NCBI RefSeq assembly: GCF_900105205.1
Contig: NZ_FNSQ01000005.1
Location: 3,100,001 to 3,164,000, forward strand
Direction: 5' to 3'
Length of the DNA: 64,000 nt
Source of the DNA: Microbacterium hydrocarbonoxydans
Lineage (GTDB): Bacteria > Actinomycetota > Actinomycetes > Actinomycetales > Microbacteriaceae
This document shows positions 3,842 to 13,880 of this stretch, one piece after another (positions within the stretch are counted from its first letter, which is position 1; every line of letters starts with the position of its first letter). Under the pieces are notes generated by a model that did not search any database, was not told where the DNA came from, and worked only from the letters and a program-made list of their open reading frames with translations. The translations under genes and the position numbers were made by a program.

Positions 3842-5608
3842 TCAGGGGACCACCACGATGCGCTGCCGCTCCGCCAGACCGAGAGCTCCTGTGGCCGGGT
3901 CGAGGTAGCGGACCACGACGTCGTGCGAACCGAGCGGCACGTCGAGCAAGCCCACGACCGTGGATCCGGTGGTCAGGAGCGCTTCCGTGGGGGGCGCACC
4001 ATCGATGGCCACGGAGACCGTCGCCCCCTCGATACCCTGGAGCGTCAGCTCGACGTCATCCTCTGCACCATCACCGTCGGCATCGACACGCGAGGTGTTG
4101 GTGCCCGAGTCGACGACGGTCGGCACGGCGAAGTCGAGCGGACCGACGGCATCGCTGTTGGTCTGCGCGCCCGTGGTGGGCGAAGTCTGTCGAGCCGCGA
4201 TCGACATCCCCTGCCGAAGGGTGTCCGGACCGAGACTCACCGAGAACGCGCCGGCCCCGTCCGCCGTCGTGGTCGCGATGACCGCTCCTCCCTCATCGAG
4301 GATGTCGATCTGCGCGCCGGGTGTCGCCGTCCCCGTGATCGCCGGCGGCACCGCGGATGCGTCGGTCACCTCCCACACGACTGTGACGACGCGATCGAGG
4401 GGCTTCGGGATCACCGGATCGGTCGGGCCGGAGGTCGGCGGGATGCTCGGGCGCACCGGAACGGATGGCACGCCGGGTACGGTCAGAAGGTCGGTCAGGA
4501 GATCGCTCGCCGGTGGATCCTCAGTCGCGGGGATCAGTGGCGGTGGGACCGGCGTCGGTTCTGCGACCGGCTGCGGTTCGGCGACCGGCGCAGGCTCCGC
4601 GACAGGTGTGACGATCGGTGAGGGCGATTCGACGACGAGCGCCGACGGCGGGTCTTCGACACCGGGTGCGCCTTGGCCGGCGAGCTGCGCGGCCACGGCG
4701 ACGACTCCCACCGCGAGCGTCCCCACCAGGATCACGCCTCCGACCACGACGCCCCATCGCGCCACCGTTCCGACGGGATCGACTGCTGCGCCCGCCGGTG
4801 CCGGACTCCCCGCCGAGTACGCCGCGGCGGCAGGCCCGCCGAGGAGCACAGGGAGCAGGACGGCCCTGAGCTTGCTCGACGCCTGCGCGACCTCGGCACT
4901 GGCCATGGTGCATCGCCGACAGCCGTCGAGGTGCGCGTCGAAGCGGGCACGATCAGCGCGGGGGACGTGTCGCTTGCGCTCCTGCGCCACGATGCGCTCG
5001 CACGCCCAGCGGCACTCCTCGTCACGACCCGGCTCCTTGATGTGCGCGTGGAGCCACGCGATCTTGAATCCCTCGCGTGCCCGCGCAGCCAGCACCGACA
5101 CGGCATTCGGCGTCATGCCCATGAGCGGAGCGATCTCCCGGGGCTTCATGCCCTCGACCTCGAGGTACCACAGCAGCGTCCGCCACCGCTCGGGAAGGTC
5201 CTTGAACGCGGTGGACAGCAGCGACTTGTCGGAGAGCAGGTCGAGGGAGTCCTCGGAGTCATCGACCGGCAGATCATCGATGTATTCGAGGGGAATGTCC
5301 TTCTGCTTGCCGCCCCACGTCGCCGCAGCGCTGCGCACCGCAGCGAACAGGTAGGGACGGAACGCGTCGGTGGGGCCACCGCCGTTGCGGATGGCGCTGA
5401 ACGTCTTCGCGAATGCCTCGCTGACGAGATCCTCGGGATCGATGGAGTTCGTGATGGCCCGTGCAGCGCGCTTCGCCGCAGGTGCGTGGCGATCCCAGAG
5501 GACCCCGTAGGCGCGACTGTCGCCGGCTCGGGTGGCGAGCACCAGCTCGTCGTCGCTCGCGTCCGGGTCTACCCGGGTGCGAGTGGGGGCATGCGGTGCG
5601 GTAGTCAT
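3842..5608 (-). CDS. Membrane-anchored ECF sigma factor fused to anti-sigma zinc motif and extracellular Ig-like domain (copy 2)
   Basis: 588 residues from the ATG at 5608, chosen because AGGA sits 7 bases upstream. Sigma region 2 is at about residues 20-95 and sigma region 4 at 130-190 ('LPERWRTLLWYLEVEGMKPR', then the helix-turn-helix 'IAPLMGMTPNAVSVLAARAR'). A zinc-binding anti-sigma motif follows: H226, C230 and C233 in AHLDGCRRC. One membrane helix lies at about 286-309. After it come a long Pro/Glu-rich stalk with repeated 'PVAEP' units and a C-terminal bacterial Ig-like domain ('ITGTATPGAQIDILDEGG'). So one polypeptide holds the sigma factor, its probable inhibitor and an outside sensor or wall-spanning domain. 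Activation would seem to need proteolytic release (inference). It is a clear paralogue of the neighbour at 5724-7589. Confidence 0.85.
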   Translation of the reverse strand: MTTAPHAPTRTRVDPDASDDELVLATRAGDSRAYGVLWDRHAPAAKRAARAITNSIDPEDLVSEAFAKTFSAIRNGGGPTDAFRPYLFAAVRSAAATWGGKQKDIPLEYIDDLPVDDSEDSLDLLSDKSLLSTAFKDLPERWRTLLWYLEVEGMKPREIAPLMGMTPNAVSVLAARAREGFKIAWLHAHIKEPGRDEECRWACERIVAQERKRHVPRADRARFDAHLDGCRRCTMASAEVAQASSKLRAVLLPVLLGGPAAAAYSAGSPAPAGAAVDPVGTVARWGVVVGGVILVGTLAVGVVAVAAQLAGQGAPGVEDPPSALVVESPSPIVTPVAEPAPVAEPQPVAEPTPVPPPLIPATEDPPASDLLTDLLTVPGVPSVPVRPSIPPTSGPTDPVIPKPLDRVVTVVWEVTDASAVPPAITGTATPGAQIDILDEGGAVIATTTADGAGAFSVSLGPDTLRQGMSIAARQTSPTTGAQTNSDAVGPLDFAVPTVVDSGTNTSRVDADGDGAEDDVELTLQGIEGATVSVAIDGAPPTEALLTTGSTVVGLLDVPLGSHDVVVRYLDPATGALGLAERQRIVVVP

Positions 5609-5723
5609 GAGACGTCCTGTCGGAAAGGTAGTACTCGGAGCGGGGCCGTATGCATACTTCTTCTGGGGGGCACGGGAAGGACCTGCGGGGTGTGGCATCC
5701 GCACGCCCTCCCCTCTGAGCGGT

Positions 5724-7589
5724 TCATCGGACGTCGCCGATCAGGACGGTGATTCCCGCACGTCCTGTAGCGGGATCGACATACCGGGCGGCGACGCAGG
5801 AGCATCCCGTCTCGACCTCGACGAGTTCCCCGTCACCTCCGGCCAGGGGCACCCGCAGCATCCGCGAGCGTCCCTCCAGGTCCACGACCTCGATCCACGA
5901 TCCGCGCTCTGCGAACAGGTGCGCGCAGTCCGCCGGTCGCTCGGAGCCGTCGCCGGATTCGCCGGCTGTGGTCGCCGACTGCGGGACCGCGAAGGTCAGC
6001 GGACCCATGGTGACGACATTCCACGTCTCCGACGATTCGGGGTCGCTCACTCGGACCCGGACCGTCATGCCGTGATGGAGCAGATCGCCGGAGATATCGA
6101 GCGAGAACGACCCGTCGTCGCCCACAGTGGTCGTGGTCAGCACCACGCCCGCTTCGTCGAGTGCAGAGATGAGCACGCCGGGCCGACCGAAGCCCTCGAT
6201 CAGCGGCGGGACGAAGGCGTCCTGCGAAATGGTCTGCGTCACGCGGAACGCCGGAGGCGTGTCTGCGCTCGGCGGACCGGACTCCGATCCGGGTGAGGGC
6301 ATGGGCGATGGAGAGTGAATCGGCACCGGCGCGGGATCGGGTGTCGGTGGCGGTGCGGGTGCAGGCTCATCCACCGGGATCGGCGACGGTGCGACTGACT
6401 GTATCGCGCGGTGGTCCGAGGAAGCGGGCGGCACCGCGGTCGGCGGACGAGTGCCGATGTCCATCTGCTCCGAGTCGGCCTCCCTCGAGGAATCAGTCGG
6501 GACGGTGTCGGTCGGCGGAGTCGCCTCCGTCGGAACTGCATCGGTCTGAACGACTGGATCCGACGCCTGCGCGCGCGTGGCGGGGGCCGAAGGGCCGTCC
6601 GTGTGCGTGGTCGGAGCGTTGAGGGCGCCCGCGACGAGCACGATGGCCACCGCCACCACGAGCGCGGCTGCCGCCGGGACCGCCACGCCGCTCAGCGGAA
6701 CGGATGCCGAGGCGTGCGCGCTCACGGGTCCGCCCTGGTGCGGGAGCAGCGGGTCGATCGCGGCCGATGCCTGTTCGGGGGCACGGACGTACGCGTCAGC
6801 CGCGGCTCCGCCCAGGACGGCGACAGGCAGAATGGAGCGCAGCCTGTGGGTCACCGTGTCGATCTCCGCGAACACCACCTGGCATCCTCGGCATTCCGCG
6901 AGGTGATCGCGGAAGCGCCTCTCGTCGTCGCCGCTGACCGGGAGATCACGCTGCGACACCAGTCGTCCGCAGAACCAGCGGCACTCCTCCGGCCTCGACG
7001 GGTCGTGGATGTGCGCCGTCAACCACGCCCGTCGGAAGCTCTCCCTCGCGCGATGGGCGAGAGCGGACACCGCATTCGGTGTGATCCCCATGAGCGGTGC
7101 GAGATCCCTCGGCTTCATGCCCTCGACCTCGAGATACCAGAGCAGGGTTCGGTGCCGGGCCGACAGCGTCGAGAAGACTGCAGCGACGCTGGACTGCTCC
7201 GCCATCCTCTCGATCGGGTCGACGACGTCCGGAGCCAGATCCCGTTCCGACAGCACTTCGATCGATACCGTCCTCCCCCGACGGCGCCAACGGACTGCGG
7301 TGTTGCGCAGGACTGCGAAGAGATAGGGACGGAAGACGTCGCGCGGCCCCCCTCCGTTCTTCGTCACGCGGAGTATGGAGGCGAACGCCTCGCTGACGAG
7401 GTCGTCCGGATCGGTGGCCGGCTCGATCGCCTTCGCCGCTCGACGCGCGGCGTCCACGTGACGCTGCCACAGGAGCGCGAAGTCGCCGATGTCCCCCTCG
7501 CGGACGGCTGCGAGGATCTGCTCGTCCGACGGCTCGTCTGGAAGCCCATCGAGGAGCACGTCCGGGTCGTGCGGCGGTGGCGGGCTCAT
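5724..7589 (-). CDS. Membrane-anchored ECF sigma factor fused to anti-sigma zinc motif and extracellular domain (copy 1)
   Basis: About 621 residues from the ATG at 7589, which has AGGTGGGG six bases upstream; in-frame ATGs at 7595 and 7613 are alternatives. The architecture matches its downstream paralogue: sigma-2 at about 25-100, sigma-4 at 140-195 ('LLWYLEVEGMKPRDLAPLMG'), and a zinc motif with H229, C233 and C236 in DHLAECRGC. Then come a membrane helix at about 299-322, a Pro/Thr/Ser-rich stalk and an Ig-like module ('GFGRPGVLISALDEAGVV'). Unlike copy 2, the extracellular end carries extra cysteines (ADCAHLF and TGCSCVA). It lies 262 bp downstream of the pilus-locus genes on the same strand, so control of surface structures is a reasonable but unproven idea. 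Confidence 0.85.
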   Translation of the reverse strand: MSPPPPHDPDVLLDGLPDEPSDEQILAAVREGDIGDFALLWQRHVDAARRAAKAIEPATDPDDLVSEAFASILRVTKNGGGPRDVFRPYLFAVLRNTAVRWRRRGRTVSIEVLSERDLAPDVVDPIERMAEQSSVAAVFSTLSARHRTLLWYLEVEGMKPRDLAPLMGITPNAVSALAHRARESFRRAWLTAHIHDPSRPEECRWFCGRLVSQRDLPVSGDDERRFRDHLAECRGCQVVFAEIDTVTHRLRSILPVAVLGGAAADAYVRAPEQASAAIDPLLPHQGGPVSAHASASVPLSGVAVPAAAALVVAVAIVLVAGALNAPTTHTDGPSAPATRAQASDPVVQTDAVPTEATPPTDTVPTDSSREADSEQMDIGTRPPTAVPPASSDHRAIQSVAPSPIPVDEPAPAPPPTPDPAPVPIHSPSPMPSPGSESGPPSADTPPAFRVTQTISQDAFVPPLIEGFGRPGVLISALDEAGVVLTTTTVGDDGSFSLDISGDLLHHGMTVRVRVSDPESSETWNVVTMGPLTFAVPQSATTAGESGDGSERPADCAHLFAERGSWIEVVDLEGRSRMLRVPLAGGDGELVEVETGCSCVAARYVDPATGRAGITVLIGDVR

Positions 7590-7851
7590 GCGCATCCCCA
7601 CCTGGACGACCATCGCGGAACCGGGCCGCGGCGGCCGGTGGCCGACGGAAGTGGGACGAGGCGTTGGGGGCGCCTCGTCCCATCGACTCTCGTGAGGGTC
7701 GAATCCGCCGGACGGGATTCGGCCGGGGAGGAACGAATCACGTGAAGCGGGGCGCCGGCAGGGTAACCGTCGCGAGGCCTGAGGCCATACTTACAGGACC
7801 CTGACAGCTCCGAATCGTGACGGATCCCGAGGAACTTTCTGCGCACGACGC

Positions 7852-8460
7852 TCACCGGTCGCTCTCCGCCGGCGACCCTACCGGCGCGAGCGCCAGGAAC
7901 CGCATCTTGTTCTCGCCGTAGAAGCAGGTCTGGACCATGAACTCGCCGGACATGCCGACCAGCACCTCGACGTTCGACCACTTGGGCGTGTGACGCTCTT
8001 CGACGACCTCGTACAGCGTGTCGGATCCCGCCACCCTGACGCGCTGCCCGAGCTCCCAGCCGAGGATGATGTCGCCGCCGCAGTTGTTGTGCGCAGCGAA
8101 CAGCGGGGGCACCTCGTCGATCCGATACGTGATCATCTCGGTGAACGTGCCGTCGCAGTGATCGAGCTCGACCATGCCGCCCTCGCCCCCCAGCCGGATC
8201 TCGGGCAGCTCGTCCGGCGCGAGCAGCTGATGCAGCTGCTTCTGCACCGCGACCTTGACGTTCCCGGTGGTCTTGTCGACCAGATCGGGCGCGAACACCG
8301 ACGCGGCCAGGAAGACGGCCCCGAGAGTCACCAGCACGATGCTCGTCAGCAGCAATGCCCGCATCCGCCTACGGACCCGGCGCGAGGAGGGAGGCCCTCC
8401 GTCCGGCTCCGGTTCCCCGTCCTCGATGGCAGCGTGCCTCGTACGGACGTCTGTCGTCAT
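7852..8460 (-). CDS. Small membrane protein with divergent sortase-like domain, coupled to the class C sortase
   Basis: 202 residues from the ATG at 8460, which overlaps the sortase C stop by four bases. An acidic N-terminal tail precedes a basic patch (RRVRRRMR) and one membrane helix (about 35-57). The outer part ends in a segment that reads like a sortase core: 'AAHNNCGGDIILGWELGQRVRV', then 'DTLYEVVEERHTP', then 'FMVQTCFYGENKMRFLALAPV'. The candidate catalytic triad is H124, C179 and R187. The usual T-G-H is replaced by A-A-H, and no lid is seen. It may be a second sortase (housekeeping-like or pilus-anchoring) or an inactive accessory. I do not recognise a named family. Confidence 0.65.
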   Translation of the reverse strand: MTTDVRTRHAAIEDGEPEPDGGPPSSRRVRRRMRALLLTSIVLVTLGAVFLAASVFAPDLVDKTTGNVKVAVQKQLHQLLAPDELPEIRLGGEGGMVELDHCDGTFTEMITYRIDEVPPLFAAHNNCGGDIILGWELGQRVRVAGSDTLYEVVEERHTPKWSNVEVLVGMSGEFMVQTCFYGENKMRFLALAPVGSPAESDR

Positions 8461-9458
8461 GGTGCTGTCGGCCCCTCGACGTGCGTGGCACGGCGTGCCG
8501 CGCCACGTCGACCAGCGCCTGGCCGACCCGCACGTGCTGCGCGAGACGTGCGCGCCCTGCGGGGGGTGAGGATGACGAAGGTGAGCGCGGGAACACCGAT
8601 CACGAGTAGCGCCCACCAGGGGAACCCGGCAGGATCTGTCGTGTCGGCGATCGTGGCGGCACCGGATGCCTCCGCCGGCGCGTCGATGCGCTCGGCCCGC
8701 ACCAGAAGGCGGTGCGTATTGACTCCGGTCGGCGTGCAGGTCACAAGCGTGATGTAGTCCTTGCCCGGCACCTGGCGAAGCGCCTCCGTGTCGTCCGGCA
8801 GCACCGTGATGGTCCGATCGACCTCGTAGTAGAGGTCTTCCCCCAGGGTCGTCACGACGATGATGTCGCCGGACACGAGCTGATCGATGTCATCGAACAG
8901 CGTCGCCTGCACGAAGCCGTTGTGACCTGTCAGCACCGAATGGGTCCCCGCTCCGCCGACGGGCAGTGACGACCCGTAGAGATGTCCGATCCCACGGGAC
9001 AGCGTCTCCTCATCGGTTCCATGGAAGATCGGCAGGTCGACGTGGATCCGAGGGATCCTGACCCGCGACATGGCGTCGGTCCCCTCGAGACGAAGCGTGT
9101 CGAAGTATGCCGAGGCGCCCTCACCGATCGCCGTCTGCTGGCCGTCGGCGCCGAGCGCGTACGGATCACGGAGAGGACCGGTGGGCAGATCCTCGTTGTA
9201 GGCCTCTGCCTCGGCGAGCATCTCCGAGATCGCCTCATCGGGTACCTGCTCGACCGACTGCACGTAGCCGTCGACATCAGTGTCGTGGCTCCAGGCGGAG
9301 AACCAGGACGCGGCCGTCGGATAGACCAGCACCACGACGCCGATGGTCGCGATGAGCATGACGATCGTCTGGCTCCACCCCCAGCGTGCCCGCCGCGCGC
9401 GAACGGTCGACGGACGCGGCGCGGGGGCATCCGATGAGGCGGTGTCGAGGAGGGTCAT
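8457..9458 (-). CDS. Class C (pilin-polymerising) sortase
   Basis: 333 residues from the ATG at 9458. It has an N-terminal membrane helix (about 29-50), the sortase domain and a C-terminal membrane helix (about 281-298) followed by a basic tail, which is the layout of class C sortases. The triad is H179 in TGHNG, C241 in LVTCTPTG and R250 in NTHRLLV. 'RDPY' at about 97-100 matches the DP-aromatic lid that plugs the active site in this class. Such enzymes join pilin subunits by linking the LPxTG threonine of one to the pilin-motif lysine of the next. Both partner proteins lie directly upstream. A strong hairpin separates it from the pilin gene. Confidence 0.93.
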   Translation of the reverse strand: MTLLDTASSDAPAPRPSTVRARRARWGWSQTIVMLIATIGVVVLVYPTAASWFSAWSHDTDVDGYVQSVEQVPDEAISEMLAEAEAYNEDLPTGPLRDPYALGADGQQTAIGEGASAYFDTLRLEGTDAMSRVRIPRIHVDLPIFHGTDEETLSRGIGHLYGSSLPVGGAGTHSVLTGHNGFVQATLFDDIDQLVSGDIIVVTTLGEDLYYEVDRTITVLPDDTEALRQVPGKDYITLVTCTPTGVNTHRLLVRAERIDAPAEASGAATIADTTDPAGFPWWALLVIGVPALTFVILTPRRARTSRAARAGRPGAGRRGAARRATHVEGPTAP

Positions 9459-9546: not shown

Positions 9547-11028
9547 TTACGCCTCGATGGCGGCCTTGCGGCGGCTGCGGATCGCGAGCAGGACTGCTCC
9601 ACCGAGCAGCAGTACGCCTCCGGCGATGAACAGCGTCGTGCCGGCACCACCGGTCAGCGGCAGCTTGAATCCGGCGTTGGAGGGCACGTTGACGACCTCG
9701 AGGTCGACACCGACAGCCGTGGTGGCTGCGGTGACGGTGAACTCGATCGGCTCGGCGAGGAGTTCGAACCCGTCGGGAGCCACGATCTCGGCGAGCCAGT
9801 ACGTCTGGTAGCCCGCGTCGCCTGCGGCGACTGCGGCGTTGTTCGCCCAGTCGGAGTAGCGCAGGCCCGAGATGGTGACGGTGCCGTCAGCTGCGACGGC
9901 GAACTCCGTCGCGCCGCCGAGAGCGATCGCGTTGGTGCCGTCCGCGGCATCCTGCTGGGTCGGGTACACCGAGAAGACGGCACCGGTCAGCGGTGCACCG
10001 GCCTTGTCGGTCTTCTCGACCGTGATGTCGCCCCACTTGGTGATGACCTCGGGGGTCACGGTGGGCCCGCCGGGCTCGCCGGGGGTGATGGTGAAGGATC
10101 CGAGGTTCGGGTACAGCACCGCGGTGTTGGCGATCTCGCCGATCTCGTTGACGGCGGCGGTGATGACGACCTGCACCTCGGTGCTGTTGTGGGCGGCGAG
10201 CACTGCGAGGCCGGCGGCCGTGAACTCGACCGTCACTGCGTTGGTGGCCGCGTCGTGCGTGATCGTGTAGTCGGTCGCGGCGAGCGCCGTGCCGTCGGCG
10301 AGGGTCACGGCGGCGCTGACGTAGTCGAGCTTGCTGTCGAGCGTGTCGACCACCTTGTATCCGTCGATGACGGCGACGTTCGGGATGTCGGCGGTGATCG
10401 TGAAGTCGATCTCATCGCCGAGCTTGATGTCGGCCGAGTCCTCGACGGTCTTCGTCGCGGCGGTCAGGGCGTTCTTCGGATAGACGTGCACGTCGTAGAG
10501 CCATGCGTCGTCATTCGCCGGATCCGTGAGCGGCACCGTCACGAGGAACGGCGCGACGCCGGTGGATCCCGCCAGCGGCGAGGTCTCGACCACGAAGTAG
10601 ACGCCGAGGTCGAGGTTCGCCAGAGCGATCTCGCCGTTGGCATCCGTCAACGTCTCGCCACCCACGGCACTGGCCGTGTAGCCGGCCGCGGTGATGTCGG
10701 CGACGCTGTCCGGGTTCAGGTCGGCGAGGTCGCTCGCGTCGATCCAGCCCTGGTTGCCGGTGAGATCGATGGTGTCGACCTTGTAGACCGTGAAGCCGAC
10801 GCCGGCGAGCGGCGGCAGTGCCACGTTCTGCTCGGTACCGTCGTTCGGCAGTCCCGTCGGGGTCTCCGGTGCCTCGTACTTGTGGATCGTCAGCGATCCC
10901 ACGGCGTCGGGGTCGACGAGGTTGGGCGTCGCCGCACTCGCGGGAGCCGCCAGGGTCAGTGCGGCGATACCTGCGACGAGCAGGCCGGCCGCGACGCGGG
11001 AACCGCGTGGGGTGTTCGGAGTGTTCAC
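9547..11028 (-). CDS. Major (backbone) pilin, SpaH/EbpB family, LPLTG-anchored
   Basis: 493 residues with a cleavable signal peptide (LTLAAPASA, cleavage near residue 32). The pilin motif WLYDVHVYPKN (W176 to K185) supplies the lysine that accepts the next subunit. An E-box-like segment 'YWLAEIVAPDGFELL' lies in the last Ig-like domain. The C-terminus has LPLTG at 456-460, a hydrophobic helix and a basic tail (RSRRK). The body is made of Cna/SpaA-type Ig-like domains, which in relatives carry internal Lys-Asn isopeptide bonds. It lies between the large adhesin (68 bp upstream) and the class C sortase that should polymerise it. Confidence 0.94.
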   Translation of the reverse strand: MNTPNTPRGSRVAAGLLVAGIAALTLAAPASAATPNLVDPDAVGSLTIHKYEAPETPTGLPNDGTEQNVALPPLAGVGFTVYKVDTIDLTGNQGWIDASDLADLNPDSVADITAAGYTASAVGGETLTDANGEIALANLDLGVYFVVETSPLAGSTGVAPFLVTVPLTDPANDDAWLYDVHVYPKNALTAATKTVEDSADIKLGDEIDFTITADIPNVAVIDGYKVVDTLDSKLDYVSAAVTLADGTALAATDYTITHDAATNAVTVEFTAAGLAVLAAHNSTEVQVVITAAVNEIGEIANTAVLYPNLGSFTITPGEPGGPTVTPEVITKWGDITVEKTDKAGAPLTGAVFSVYPTQQDAADGTNAIALGGATEFAVAADGTVTISGLRYSDWANNAAVAAGDAGYQTYWLAEIVAPDGFELLAEPIEFTVTAATTAVGVDLEVVNVPSNAGFKLPLTGGAGTTLFIAGGVLLLGGAVLLAIRSRRKAAIEA

Positions 11029-11096: not shown

Positions 11097-13673
11097 TCAG
11101 GCCTGCGGGTCGTGGGTCTCGGCGTGAGCGTTGCGGCGGCGGACCCGGAGGGCCAGTCCGCCGGCGATCAGCACGACGAGGGAACCGGCGAGGAGGTAGG
11201 GCAGTGGCCCTGCTCCACCGGTCGTCGGAAGAAGCATCGCCGGCACGTCGCGCACGGTGATGAGCTGCCCGGTGGCGGTGACAGCCTCATCTCCGCCTGC
11301 GGTGATGCTGACCGTGCGATCGGCATTGATGACGAACTGCACGGGAGCAGCCAGCAGGGTGAAGCCGTCTGGTGCCGCCAGCTCGCTCAGCCAGTACGTT
11401 CCGGCCGGGATGCCGTCGATCTGGAACAGCCCGGTCTCGACATCGTCGAGGGTGAAGGGCAGCGCCGTTCCCGGCTCTCCGTTCACGTCCTCGAGGATCG
11501 CGAAGGAGGAGCCGTCCATGCGCACCCACGTGTCGTCGCTCGACTCCCCGATCTTCTCGATCTGCAATGGGATCCGGAACGCTTCGACCGGAGTCGTGGT
11601 GCTGTCGTCGTTGGACCGCACCGGCCCGCCGTCGGGATCTGTGCCGGTCGAGTGGGCCGTGTTCACGACCTCTCCCGCGTCGACATCGGCCTGGGTCAGG
11701 ACGTACGGGGCGTTCGCGACGCAGTGCGCGATCTGGGCCGGGGCGATCGTCGCCGGAGTGCAGGTCACCGTGATGCTGCGCTGCGTGAGCCGGTCGTCGA
11801 CCACGGCGATCCCTGCGACGGTGACGTTGCCGGTGTTGGTGACGTCGAAGGCGTAGAGGAGGTGGTCCCCGAGACCCGTCACGCCGTCCTGATCGACGTC
11901 GACGATCGAGACCGTCTTGTCGAGAAGCAGTGCGGGCGTCCAGACGGCCGGGATGATCTCGTCGTCGGTGTCGGTGACGTTCGGGCCGGTGGCCGGAGTG
12001 CCGGTGGTACGCGCCACGTTCGTCAGCGGTGCGTTGTCGAGGTCGCTCTGCTGCACGACATAGGTCGCCGTGCAGGTGAGCTTCGCCCCGCTCGCGAGCG
12101 TCACCGGAGCCGGCTTGTCGCACACCAGGGTGCTCATGTCCCCGACACCCGAGAACGAGTCCTCGGTGATGGTCACGTTGGTGAGGCTCGTGTTGGCCAC
12201 CGTGTTCGTGAGCGCCTTCGGTGTGGTGTTGGTGGCGACGAACGTGTACGTCGCGATGTCCCCGACGGAGTCGTAGTTCGCGATGTTCGAGGTCTTCACC
12301 AGGTCGATGGACGGCTTGATGAACTCGACCGACGCGTTCTCCGGCGGGTTGAGGTTGGTGGTGACGTTGGCCGGGCCGTTGACGTAGGTGCCGTCGGTGT
12401 TGGACGTGACGTCGACCGTGATCGTGCAGCTGGCCTGCCCGAGGGCGAGATCTCCGCCGGTCACCGCGATCGACGTGCCTCCGGCAACCGTCGTGCGGAC
12501 GAGGGCATTGCCGGTGACCTGCGCGCACGTCCCGCCGATGTTCGGCGTCGGAGCGATCACCAGTCCCGTGGGCAGTGCATCCGTGAACGTCCAGTCGCTC
12601 TTGGCGAGCAGGTCGGTCGTGTTCGTGATGGTGAATGTGAGCTTCGATACCCCACCACGAGTGACGACGGTCGGCGAGAACGACTTGTCCAGGCTCGGGG
12701 TGACATCGAGGAGTCGGATGTTGTCGAACCCGCCGTCGTTGCCGTTCGTGACGCCCGAGGCGTTGTACATCTTGATGCCGAGCGAGCTGCCCGCGTACTG
12801 GAAGGCCGACGTGGCCTGCAGCGACTGCACGTAGGCGGTCATGGTGGTGTTGGTGCCCACCGCGAGCGGACGGTTCACGACGACGGTCTGACGGGTCGGG
12901 CTCGGTCGGCACCCGTTGAGGACACCGCCGACGTTGGTGGCGAGTCCTCCTCCGTCGACCAGCTGGAACTGGTACTGCGGATCGCTCGCCTGCGTCGTGG
13001 TGCTGGCGGGGTTCGCGCAGTTGCCGTACACGGTGTCGACGCTGAAGGTGTAATACCGGTTGGGCGTGACGGGGATCGACGTCGTCGTCTGGAACATCAC
13101 GCCGTTGGTGGGTCCAGAGCCGATGACATCGCAGGTGCCGGTGTTGCCGAGAGCGGTGAGCTGGCATTCGGTGTAGCCGGAGACGATGTGCTCGTTGTCG
13201 CCGCTGCCCGTCACCACACCCATCGCTCTCGCGAGCGTGCGGATGCCGTTGTAGCTCTGCACTCCGGCGACGGTGCTGCACTTGTTGGTCAGCACCGGCG
13301 TGGACGCCCACGCCGGAGCGAGCGAGTTGTTGTAGCTGAGGATGACGCCGTTGCAGCGGTTTCCGTTGATCCACGAGGTGCTGCCGGTGTAGGTCTGTCC
13401 CGCCGCCCCGACGTATTGCGCTGCGCCGTTGGCGGTGGTGTACGACTTCGCGCCCGTGGCGAGGTTGGTCATGCCGTTCTCGAAGTTCTCCGTGAACACC
13501 ACGGTCGGGGCTTCGGTGACCCCAGCGGCCGCCTGGGCGGTCGGGGGTTGGGGCGGCGTGATGCCGAGGGACGTCGCGACGACGACCGCACCCACCGCCA
13601 CGACGATGGCGCGCCACCACGCGGTGACTGCGGTGCGGGGTGTTCTCCCCCGTCGATGTGAGCGAATGCTCAT
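11097..13673 (-). CDS. Large LPTTG-anchored surface protein, probable pilus tip adhesin
   Basis: 858 residues. A basic N-terminus and signal peptide (ending PPTAQAAAG) lead into a roughly 300-residue globular region rich in Asn, Thr and Gly. It has paired cysteines (NRCNGV, TNKCSTV, TECQLT, TCDVIG) and resembles a lectin-like or jelly-roll adhesive head. Two or three DUF11-like Ig repeats follow ('TPSLDKSFSPTVV', 'VTNTGNVTVAGIAVVDD'), then a SpaA/Cna-type domain with 'YWLSELAAPDGFTLL'. LPTTG is at 815-819, before the membrane helix and RVRRR tail. It is the first gene of the pilus cluster and lacks an obvious WxxxVxVYPK lysine motif, which suits a tip subunit. Confidence 0.85.
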   Translation of the reverse strand: MSIRSHRRGRTPRTAVTAWWRAIVVAVGAVVVATSLGITPPQPPTAQAAAGVTEAPTVVFTENFENGMTNLATGAKSYTTANGAAQYVGAAGQTYTGSTSWINGNRCNGVILSYNNSLAPAWASTPVLTNKCSTVAGVQSYNGIRTLARAMGVVTGSGDNEHIVSGYTECQLTALGNTGTCDVIGSGPTNGVMFQTTTSIPVTPNRYYTFSVDTVYGNCANPASTTTQASDPQYQFQLVDGGGLATNVGGVLNGCRPSPTRQTVVVNRPLAVGTNTTMTAYVQSLQATSAFQYAGSSLGIKMYNASGVTNGNDGGFDNIRLLDVTPSLDKSFSPTVVTRGGVSKLTFTITNTTDLLAKSDWTFTDALPTGLVIAPTPNIGGTCAQVTGNALVRTTVAGGTSIAVTGGDLALGQASCTITVDVTSNTDGTYVNGPANVTTNLNPPENASVEFIKPSIDLVKTSNIANYDSVGDIATYTFVATNTTPKALTNTVANTSLTNVTITEDSFSGVGDMSTLVCDKPAPVTLASGAKLTCTATYVVQQSDLDNAPLTNVARTTGTPATGPNVTDTDDEIIPAVWTPALLLDKTVSIVDVDQDGVTGLGDHLLYAFDVTNTGNVTVAGIAVVDDRLTQRSITVTCTPATIAPAQIAHCVANAPYVLTQADVDAGEVVNTAHSTGTDPDGGPVRSNDDSTTTPVEAFRIPLQIEKIGESSDDTWVRMDGSSFAILEDVNGEPGTALPFTLDDVETGLFQIDGIPAGTYWLSELAAPDGFTLLAAPVQFVINADRTVSITAGGDEAVTATGQLITVRDVPAMLLPTTGGAGPLPYLLAGSLVVLIAGGLALRVRRRNAHAETHDPQA

Positions 13674-13880
13674 GTGCGTCCCGATTCCGGCGGTCGGCCG
13701 CCTGCCGTCTCTGGCAAGGCGGCGAAGCGATCGCCTGTCCCCAAATTGCGTCTAGTCCCCAGTGCAAGACAGGTGGCCGAGGCTGCCCGTCATATATCCA
13801 GACTCGAGCGCGGAGGTTTTATGACGGGGCCACCGATATTCCGTTGATCCGATCCGACCGAGGCACCGTAGGCTCGCAGC

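Follow-up and report, generated by a model that had tools for sequence, protein, structure and literature searches.

We analysed a 64-kb window (the whole stretch of DNA, 64,000 nucleotides) from the genome of Microbacterium hydrocarbonoxydans, in which two adjacent genes, here called SIG1 and SIG2, follow a pilus operon on the same strand, with SIG2 starting ~260 bases past the operon and SIG1 ~115 bases past SIG2. Each encodes, in one chain, an extracytoplasmic function (ECF) sigma factor joined to a zinc anti-sigma motif, a membrane anchor and an Ig-like exterior, and a promoter-like element, CGTCAYR-N16-RTCYBK, precedes SIG2 as well as the pilus operon. We consider it probable (roughly 70%) that these are membrane-held, autoregulated sigma factors that are freed by proteolysis and drive pili and other surface genes.

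The element came to light when the upstream regions of four genomes were aligned, which revealed a dyad before the first pilin gene and before SIG2 in which 18 bases separate CGTCA from RTC, the spacing referred to throughout. The sequence CCGTCA-N18-GTCYKG stood at both places in all four discovery genomes and at just one other place, L077, among 103 loci. The element was also present in 4 of 4 genomes at a second, distantly related pilus operon that has its own fused sigma of another branch. Among hold-out genomes the strict element preceded the pilin operon in five of six (G281, G241, G283, G186 and G121, not G282) and SIG2 in four of five (G282 again being the exception, and G121 having no SIG2 at this locus). 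The SIG2 sites had already been seen prior to the hold-out test. It also precedes SIG2 in L187 and L188, strict matches lie 439-460 nt upstream of the SIG1-type genes of L185 and L188, and at a fused sigma in an N-acetylglucosamine locus (L006-type, described below) it reads CGTGA with equal spacing.

Upstream of 56 fused-sigma genes, a set that includes the four discovery genomes, CGTSAY-N17-GTCYBK occurred in 30 at spacing 18 and in zero to two at each of 16 other spacings, and the opposite-strand control for the same genes gave 2. A further 80 loci were taken from genomes with names: most belong to Microbacteriaceae, one to Xylanimonas, and some to metagenome-assembled genomes (MAGs) whose names reach only higher ranks. 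Judged by length, no fewer than eight of the 80 are contigs that had been looked at before, and one of those (L186, from G143) had served to find the dyad. The 80 loci held 83 sites at spacing 18 (72 intergenic) compared with 3-13 (0-5 intergenic) at 12 other spacings. Of their 73 callable sigma genes, 29 had the element upstream at spacing 18, against 0-2 at other spacings and 12 for the opposite strand. When the first base was left free, all 57 of the 57 spacing-18 sites had C there.

At 51 pilus-operon starts the strict element was present in 7 of the 8 with a fused sigma nearby versus 2 of the 43 without (L059 and L077; Fisher p = 2.4e-6), two of the 43 having too little upstream sequence. 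The sole miss among the eight, L100, has the element before the pilin and not before the gene that the script assigned as first; counting L100 and G121 the comparison becomes 9/9 versus 2/43 (p = 1.5e-8), G282 having been found later and standing outside this table, where its two loci would count as misses. A looser form gave 13 matches at spacing 18 at the same starts and 0-2 at others.

Across 80 genomes a narrow form of the pattern had 49 matches in 39 genomes with a fused sigma and 16 in 41 without (p = 1e-5; 9e-5 once five known self-promoters are removed), where the 39 were hand-picked from those with matches, the 41 comprise 31 with no match and 10 with only weak ones, and genome size is uncorrected. 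Counted by genome the figures are 24/39 and 13/41 (p = 0.013), and the reversed narrow pattern has 5 matches across all 80. The M. hydrocarbonoxydans genome has 28 matches to the pattern versus 5 to its reverse, 10 of the 28 lying inside predicted genes and therefore taken as chance.

Architecture of SIG1 and SIG2

Both genes are single open frames on the minus strand, SIG1 beginning with ATG and SIG2 having alternative in-frame starts possible at 7595 and 7613, and both products run in the same order: sigma region 2, region 4, zinc anti-sigma motif, one membrane helix, Pro-rich stalk and Ig-like exterior. In Pfam, SIG1 matches Sigma70_r2 at 24.8 bits (cut-off 24), Sigma70_r4_2 at 28.2 bits (cut-off 25.7) and Big_6 at 32.1 bits (cut-off 27.6). 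The corresponding matches of SIG2 are above the cut-off for Sigma70_r2 (25.3 bits), 1.5 bits under it for Sigma70_r4_2 (24.2 bits), and under it for Big_6 (20.0 bits, E = 8e-4). TIGR02937 is above cut-off in both, and having Sigma70_r2 and Sigma70_r4_2 but neither region 1 nor region 3 places both among the ECF sigma factors.

Zinc-binding anti-sigma (ZAS) motifs take the form H/C-x25ish-H-x3-C-x2-C. The Pfam family zf-HC2 is sub-threshold in SIG1 and SIG2 (17.8 and 18.9 bits, cut-off 22.2) and above the cut-off in the genome's two other fused-sigma copies (31.9 and 28.7 bits). The ligands C199, H226, C230 and C233 (SIG1 numbering), which in SIG2 appear as C-x25-H-x3-C-x2-C beginning at C203, are invariant in 88 of 88 aligned sequences, comprising SIG1, SIG2 and 86 of 120 listed relatives, and on this invariance we assign the ZAS motif to both proteins. 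The residues that are invariant across the 88 sequences fall mostly within the sigma and zinc parts.

The best 19-residue Kyte-Doolittle means are 2.69 and 2.86, and in each protein all segments above 1.6 lie inside one stretch, which argues against two membrane helices, an arrangement that would put the Ig domains inside; a weaker second hydrophobic stretch in SIG1 (~residues 247-268) has a mean of up to 1.47. A Pro-rich linker lies C-terminal to the main stretch in both. AlphaFold2, run on SIG1 only, gave confident helices to ~residue 250 and beta domains at residues 409-588, with the membrane and stalk regions at low confidence. In structural comparisons SIG1 ~residues 15-191 resemble sigma-E/AlgU-type ECFs and residues 403-588 resemble Ig-like domains, including those of bacterial adhesins; the fold-search matches listed cover mainly residues 16-191 and 403-588, and among them there is none to the zinc segment alone. 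The prediction and the fold comparison both place another beta domain, to which no Pfam family matches, between the Big_6 domain of SIG1 and the C-terminus. Pfam found no carbohydrate-binding family in either protein, and Big_6 instead.

These results confirm a first-pass annotation of the window, which had described each gene as a single polypeptide with this order of parts. An internal start that would make the outer part a separate protein, which would have undone that description, is unlikely: of the 486 relatives found, 120 were listed, and 115 of these are at least 467 residues long; six-frame genome searches also yield long open frames. The relative search admitted only lengths of 0.55-1.75 times the query, so that sigma-only relatives could not show. 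One shortened form was observed, the SIG2 of G124 (L040:8391-9395), whose 334 residues match SIG2 only to residue 338; it keeps the sigma, zinc and membrane parts, is without the exterior, and has its element intact.

Distribution, proposed mechanism and alternatives

The genome holds two further fused sigmas. One (L007) is directly behind the second sortase-C pilus operon, whose identity to that of the window is just 37-41%, and the other (L006) has GH20/amidohydrolase genes on one side and glucosamine-isomerase/ROK genes on the other, in an N-acetylglucosamine locus (L006:4295-14591). The L006 protein has 733 residues and no recognised outer domain. L006-type copies were seen in 10 of 22 loci read, and a wall- or chitin-sugar sensor is a possible role for them.

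Among 149 congeneric genomes SIG2 had matches at E <= 1e-3 in 118, some of them merely ordinary ECFs, and 43 of the genomes together carried 52 matches to the class C sortase (E <= 1e-25). A fused sigma lay within 10 kb of the sortase at 9 of the 52 loci, the window type accounting for five (own genome, G143, G127, G124 and G121) and the second type for four (own genome, G116, G087 and G020). A further search, of 295 genomes, added G281, G241, G283, G186 and G282, which were chosen by their sigma and hence give no linkage count; G282 has a window-type pilus locus with SIG2 and, in addition, a third pilus type with a sigma of yet another branch. In a tree of 41 rows the pilus-linked sigmas fall in three places, the tree tool warning that the second-type joins, on a long branch, may be false. 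The pilus link of the fused sigmas is real but partial, and arose in three sigma lineages. SIG1 and SIG2 form sister clades that predate these species, so the pair of paralogues noted at first pass is real and conserved; its tandem character holds in the window and lapses in several relatives, where a regulator gene or small operon intervenes.

SIG1 and SIG2 are best explained as one-component membrane-tethered ECF sigma factors that would work like ECF48, ECF52 and ECF53, to which we liken them by described architecture rather than by group models or reference sequences. At rest, sigma regions 2 and 4 would be masked in cis by the zinc anti-sigma segment, while the membrane helix and Pro-rich stalk, to judge from the anatomy of the protein, would place the Ig-like domains in or beyond the wall. 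We infer from known cases that an envelope or pilus-related signal triggers proteolysis, in which a site-1 cut, followed by an M50 site-2 protease or PrsW, would free the sigma part. A genome-wide check for such proteases, proposed at first pass, returned one M50 match and one PrsW match, and the proposal made there that a release step is needed, probably proteolysis, agrees both with the sequence and with what has been published on ECF48/52/53 (PMC8999054, PMC5826349). The free sigma factor would then recognise CGTCAYR-N16-RTCYBK, the element before SIG2 would provide positive autoregulation, and SIG1 would probably be co-transcribed. With the element before both SIG2 and the pilus operon, the signal and the surface structure would thereby be coupled.

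Several observations weigh against this model. No fused sigma was found within ~10 kb at 43 of the 52 class C sortase loci, a few of whose stretches end before 10 kb (contig or fetch limits), and the pilus loci and fused sigmas examined are in most cases not neighbours; the suggestion that the architecture might always lie beside pilus genes fails on these counts and on the copy in the N-acetylglucosamine locus, and we rejected pilus neighbourhood as a general rule. The strict element is missing upstream of 26 of the 56 and 44 of the 73 fused-sigma genes, including all seven SIG1 genes of the 56-gene set, which would need the SIG2 promoter or another. In the 64-kb window the pattern occurs 2 times at spacing 18, 3 at 17 and 3 at 19, and the case therefore rests on position and conservation. 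The species are related, so that the sites are not independent events and the counts are inflated, and the pattern was loosened after the second pilus type had been seen. The window-type locus of G282 is without the strict element before pilin or SIG2 (a loose form ~670 nt before the pilin and a 19-base-spaced form 83 nt before SIG2 were looked for afterwards), and at its third pilus type an element precedes the sigma and none precedes the pilin operon. The docking of the anti-sigma segment on the sigma part is presumed, and the element may be read by some other sigma factor.

On this last point it could be proposed that another sigma, for example of ECF41 type, reads the element and controls both the fused-sigma genes and the pili, with SIG1 and SIG2 acting elsewhere. 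The ECF41 promoter, TGTCACA-N16-CGTC (PMC3426412), has GTCA and CGTC cores in common with the element, and an ECF41-like gene, judged by eye and not scanned, lies near one site in the M. hydrocarbonoxydans genome (L149). However, TGTCACA...CGTC at GTCA-to-GTC spacings of 16-22 was found in 0 of 136 sigma-upstream regions, the C that begins every one of the 57 sites departs from TGTCACA, and the element goes with fused-sigma genes from several lineages and genera at one spacing, its frequency being about threefold higher where the genome holds such genes. Autoregulation is, moreover, usual for ECFs, and we regard control by another sigma as improbable.

A somewhat stronger competitor, which we nevertheless rate as unlikely, is that SIG1 and SIG2 sense something unrelated to pili, such as wall amino sugars, the pilus operon being one of many outputs. 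The copy that adjoins GH20, amidohydrolase and glucosamine-isomerase genes points that way, as do the elements that precede genes other than pilus ones, but three separate sigma lineages came to sit just downstream of three different pilus operons. That the sigma part is inactive or constitutive, the protein being mainly a surface protein and the fusion an evolutionary accident, we find very hard to credit. The shortening of SIG2 in G124 could be cited for it; the concentration of invariant residues in the sigma and zinc parts speaks against it, as does the dominance of long forms among the listed relatives, within the length limits of that search.

Beyond the membrane-held, autoregulated pair, the data permit a tentative generalisation, which we put forward as rather less than an even bet: across the Microbacteriaceae, self-inhibited membrane sigmas sharing one promoter class, CGTCAYR-N16-RTCYBK, may switch on themselves, sortase pili and other anchored surface proteins, each sensing its own envelope or appendage state via its exterior, with several genera also having a structured, probably non-coding RNA past the sigma gene.

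Neighbouring genes and further element sites

Table 1. Features of the SIG1-SIG2 region and pilus operon, in window coordinates
Feature	Position	Strand	Basis
Promoter-like element CGTCAT-N17-GTCTGG, upstream of pilus operon	13798..13826	-	alignment; 5/6 hold-out genomes
Pilin 1, large SpaA-domain surface protein; LPTTG-type anchor in orthologues	11097..13673	-	family scans; relatives' loci
Pilin 2, SpaH/EbpB-family major pilin	9547..11028	-	NF033902
Class C (pilin) sortase, start codon uncertain	8457..9380	-	NF033745
Divergent sortase-like membrane protein (predicted), 202 aa	7852..8460	-	predicted fold; conserved residues
Promoter-like element CGTCAC-N17-GTCCTG, upstream of SIG2	7794..7822	-	alignment; 4/5 hold-out genomes
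SIG2, fused ECF sigma / zinc anti-sigma / membrane helix / Pro-rich stalk / Ig-like, 621 aa	5724..7589	-	Pfam; own element upstream
SIG2 sigma region 2 (aa 40-106)	7272..7472	-	Pfam PF04542
SIG2 sigma region 4 (aa 138-183)	7041..7178	-	Pfam PF08281, 1.5 bits under cut-off
SIG2 zinc anti-sigma motif C-x25-H-x3-C-x2-C (aa 203-236)	6882..6983	-	motif; zf-HC2 below cut-off
SIG2 membrane helix (~aa 299-322)	6624..6695	-	hydropathy
SIG2 Big_6-like domain (aa 464-519)	6033..6200	-	Pfam PF17936 below cut-off, E 8e-4
SIG1, paralogue of equal architecture, 588 aa	3842..5608	-	Pfam, alignment, AlphaFold2
SIG1 sigma region 2 (aa 37-95)	5324..5500	-	Pfam PF04542
SIG1 sigma region 4 (aa 132-179)	5072..5215	-	Pfam PF08281
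SIG1 zinc motif C199...H226-x3-C230-x2-C233	4910..5014	-	invariant in 88 aligned sequences
SIG1 membrane helix (~aa 285-311)	4676..4756	-	hydropathy
SIG1 Big_6 domain (aa 423-474)	4187..4342	-	Pfam PF17936 above cut-off; AlphaFold2

The operon upstream of SIG2 consists of the SpaA-domain pilin, the SpaH/EbpB major pilin (387.7 bits), the class C sortase (248.9 bits) and the 202-residue sortase-like protein; with NF033745, NF033902 and Gram_pos_anchor all above cut-off it is a sortase-assembled pilus operon, and the pilus neighbours named at first pass are borne out. The 202-residue protein has no Pfam match, the named relatives found were all from Microbacterium, and it has a predicted membrane-anchored sortase fold in which His124 and Cys179 are invariant and Arg187 nearly so. 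We take it for a putative accessory sortase, of divergent sequence, that belongs to the operon. Downstream of SIG1 are genes that, from their sequences and without a family scan, we take to be sufS- and sufU-like.

Elements also precede genes other than fused sigmas and pili. In 13 loci of other genera or MAGs (L245:11614, L209:11466, L223:11626, L264:11637, L210, L212, L220, L221, L227, L242, L253, L258 and L259) a second element lies directly past the sigma gene, with no gene called close behind it by the script and, in four loci with genes listed, a convergent gene resembling sdhB. Some of the hairpins that follow are very stable (shuffle z to -9.7), and in three loci z is near 0. The structured stretch is a candidate sigma-dependent small RNA. 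The four of the 13 loci scanned had no Rfam match at these stretches; in all, six loci were compared with Rfam at gathering thresholds, and the sole matches were three FMN riboswitches.

Five elements cluster at the second pilus locus of the M. hydrocarbonoxydans genome (C5:377862-387274; L007, L150-L154), one of them preceding a possible 112-residue membrane protein and others preceding structured stretches without clear open reading frames, and G282 has a similar cluster past its SIG2 (L180:13390-15150). At L197:9824, L229:9823, L214:9787 and L250:9890 elements face divergent surface-protein genes with sortase-type ends, namely LAPTG ~870 nt away (L197 and L229), LAHTG 158 nt away (L214) and IPLTG (L250), hinting that surface proteins beyond pili may belong to the same regulon.

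Comparison with known systems

The fused sigma/anti-sigma architecture is already known from ECF48, ECF52 and ECF53, and what appears new here is the pilus link and the shared promoter-like element. The first-pass annotation had called the arrangement unrecognised, which does not hold for the architecture (ECF52); the regulatory tie to the pilus locus has gained motif evidence. An open-licence literature search turned up neither sortase-pilus control by a membrane-held sigma nor the shared element, and the published ECF classification may list Ig-like or pilus contexts.

The closest likeness is to actinobacterial ECF52, represented by SCO4117 of Streptomyces coelicolor, in which a sigma factor, zinc finger, transmembrane (TM) helix, long Pro-rich extension and extracellular carbohydrate-binding domain form one chain, and for which autoregulation and protease release have been proposed (PMC5826349). 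SIG1 and SIG2 share the zinc finger, TM helix and Pro-rich extension but have Ig-like domains in place of the C-terminal carbohydrate-binding module, and SCO4117 controls development and antibiotics through a proposed motif, CSGYN-17bp-SRHA, unlike the element found here. ECF53 and ECF48 are likewise described as actinobacterial ECFs with a C-terminal zinc finger and one or two TM helices, and proteolytic activation is expected for them (PMC8999054).

IutY (ECF243) of Pseudomonas putida is described as the experimentally characterised sigma-anti-sigma fusion, processed by Prc and RseP, whose mode of release ECF48, ECF52 and ECF53 are expected to follow (PMC8999054). It resembles SIG1 and SIG2 in having a sigma factor fused to a membrane anti-sigma, but differs in serving iron-starvation signalling by xenosiderophore, in other bacteria and with another outer part. 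ECF41 has a cytoplasmic extension and no membrane part, and its promoter (-35 TGTCACA, -10 CGTC, spacer 16 +/- 1; PMC3426412) resembles the element in its GTCA-type -35 and CGTC -10; the element begins CGTCAY, has a fixed spacing one base shorter than the ECF41 centre, and is not of the form TGTCACA-N16(+/-1)-CGTC. The element supplies the fused sigmas throughout a bacterial family with a concrete promoter and regulon that can be put to the test, and makes the question of what frees an inhibitor-fused sigma approachable in an environmental genus.

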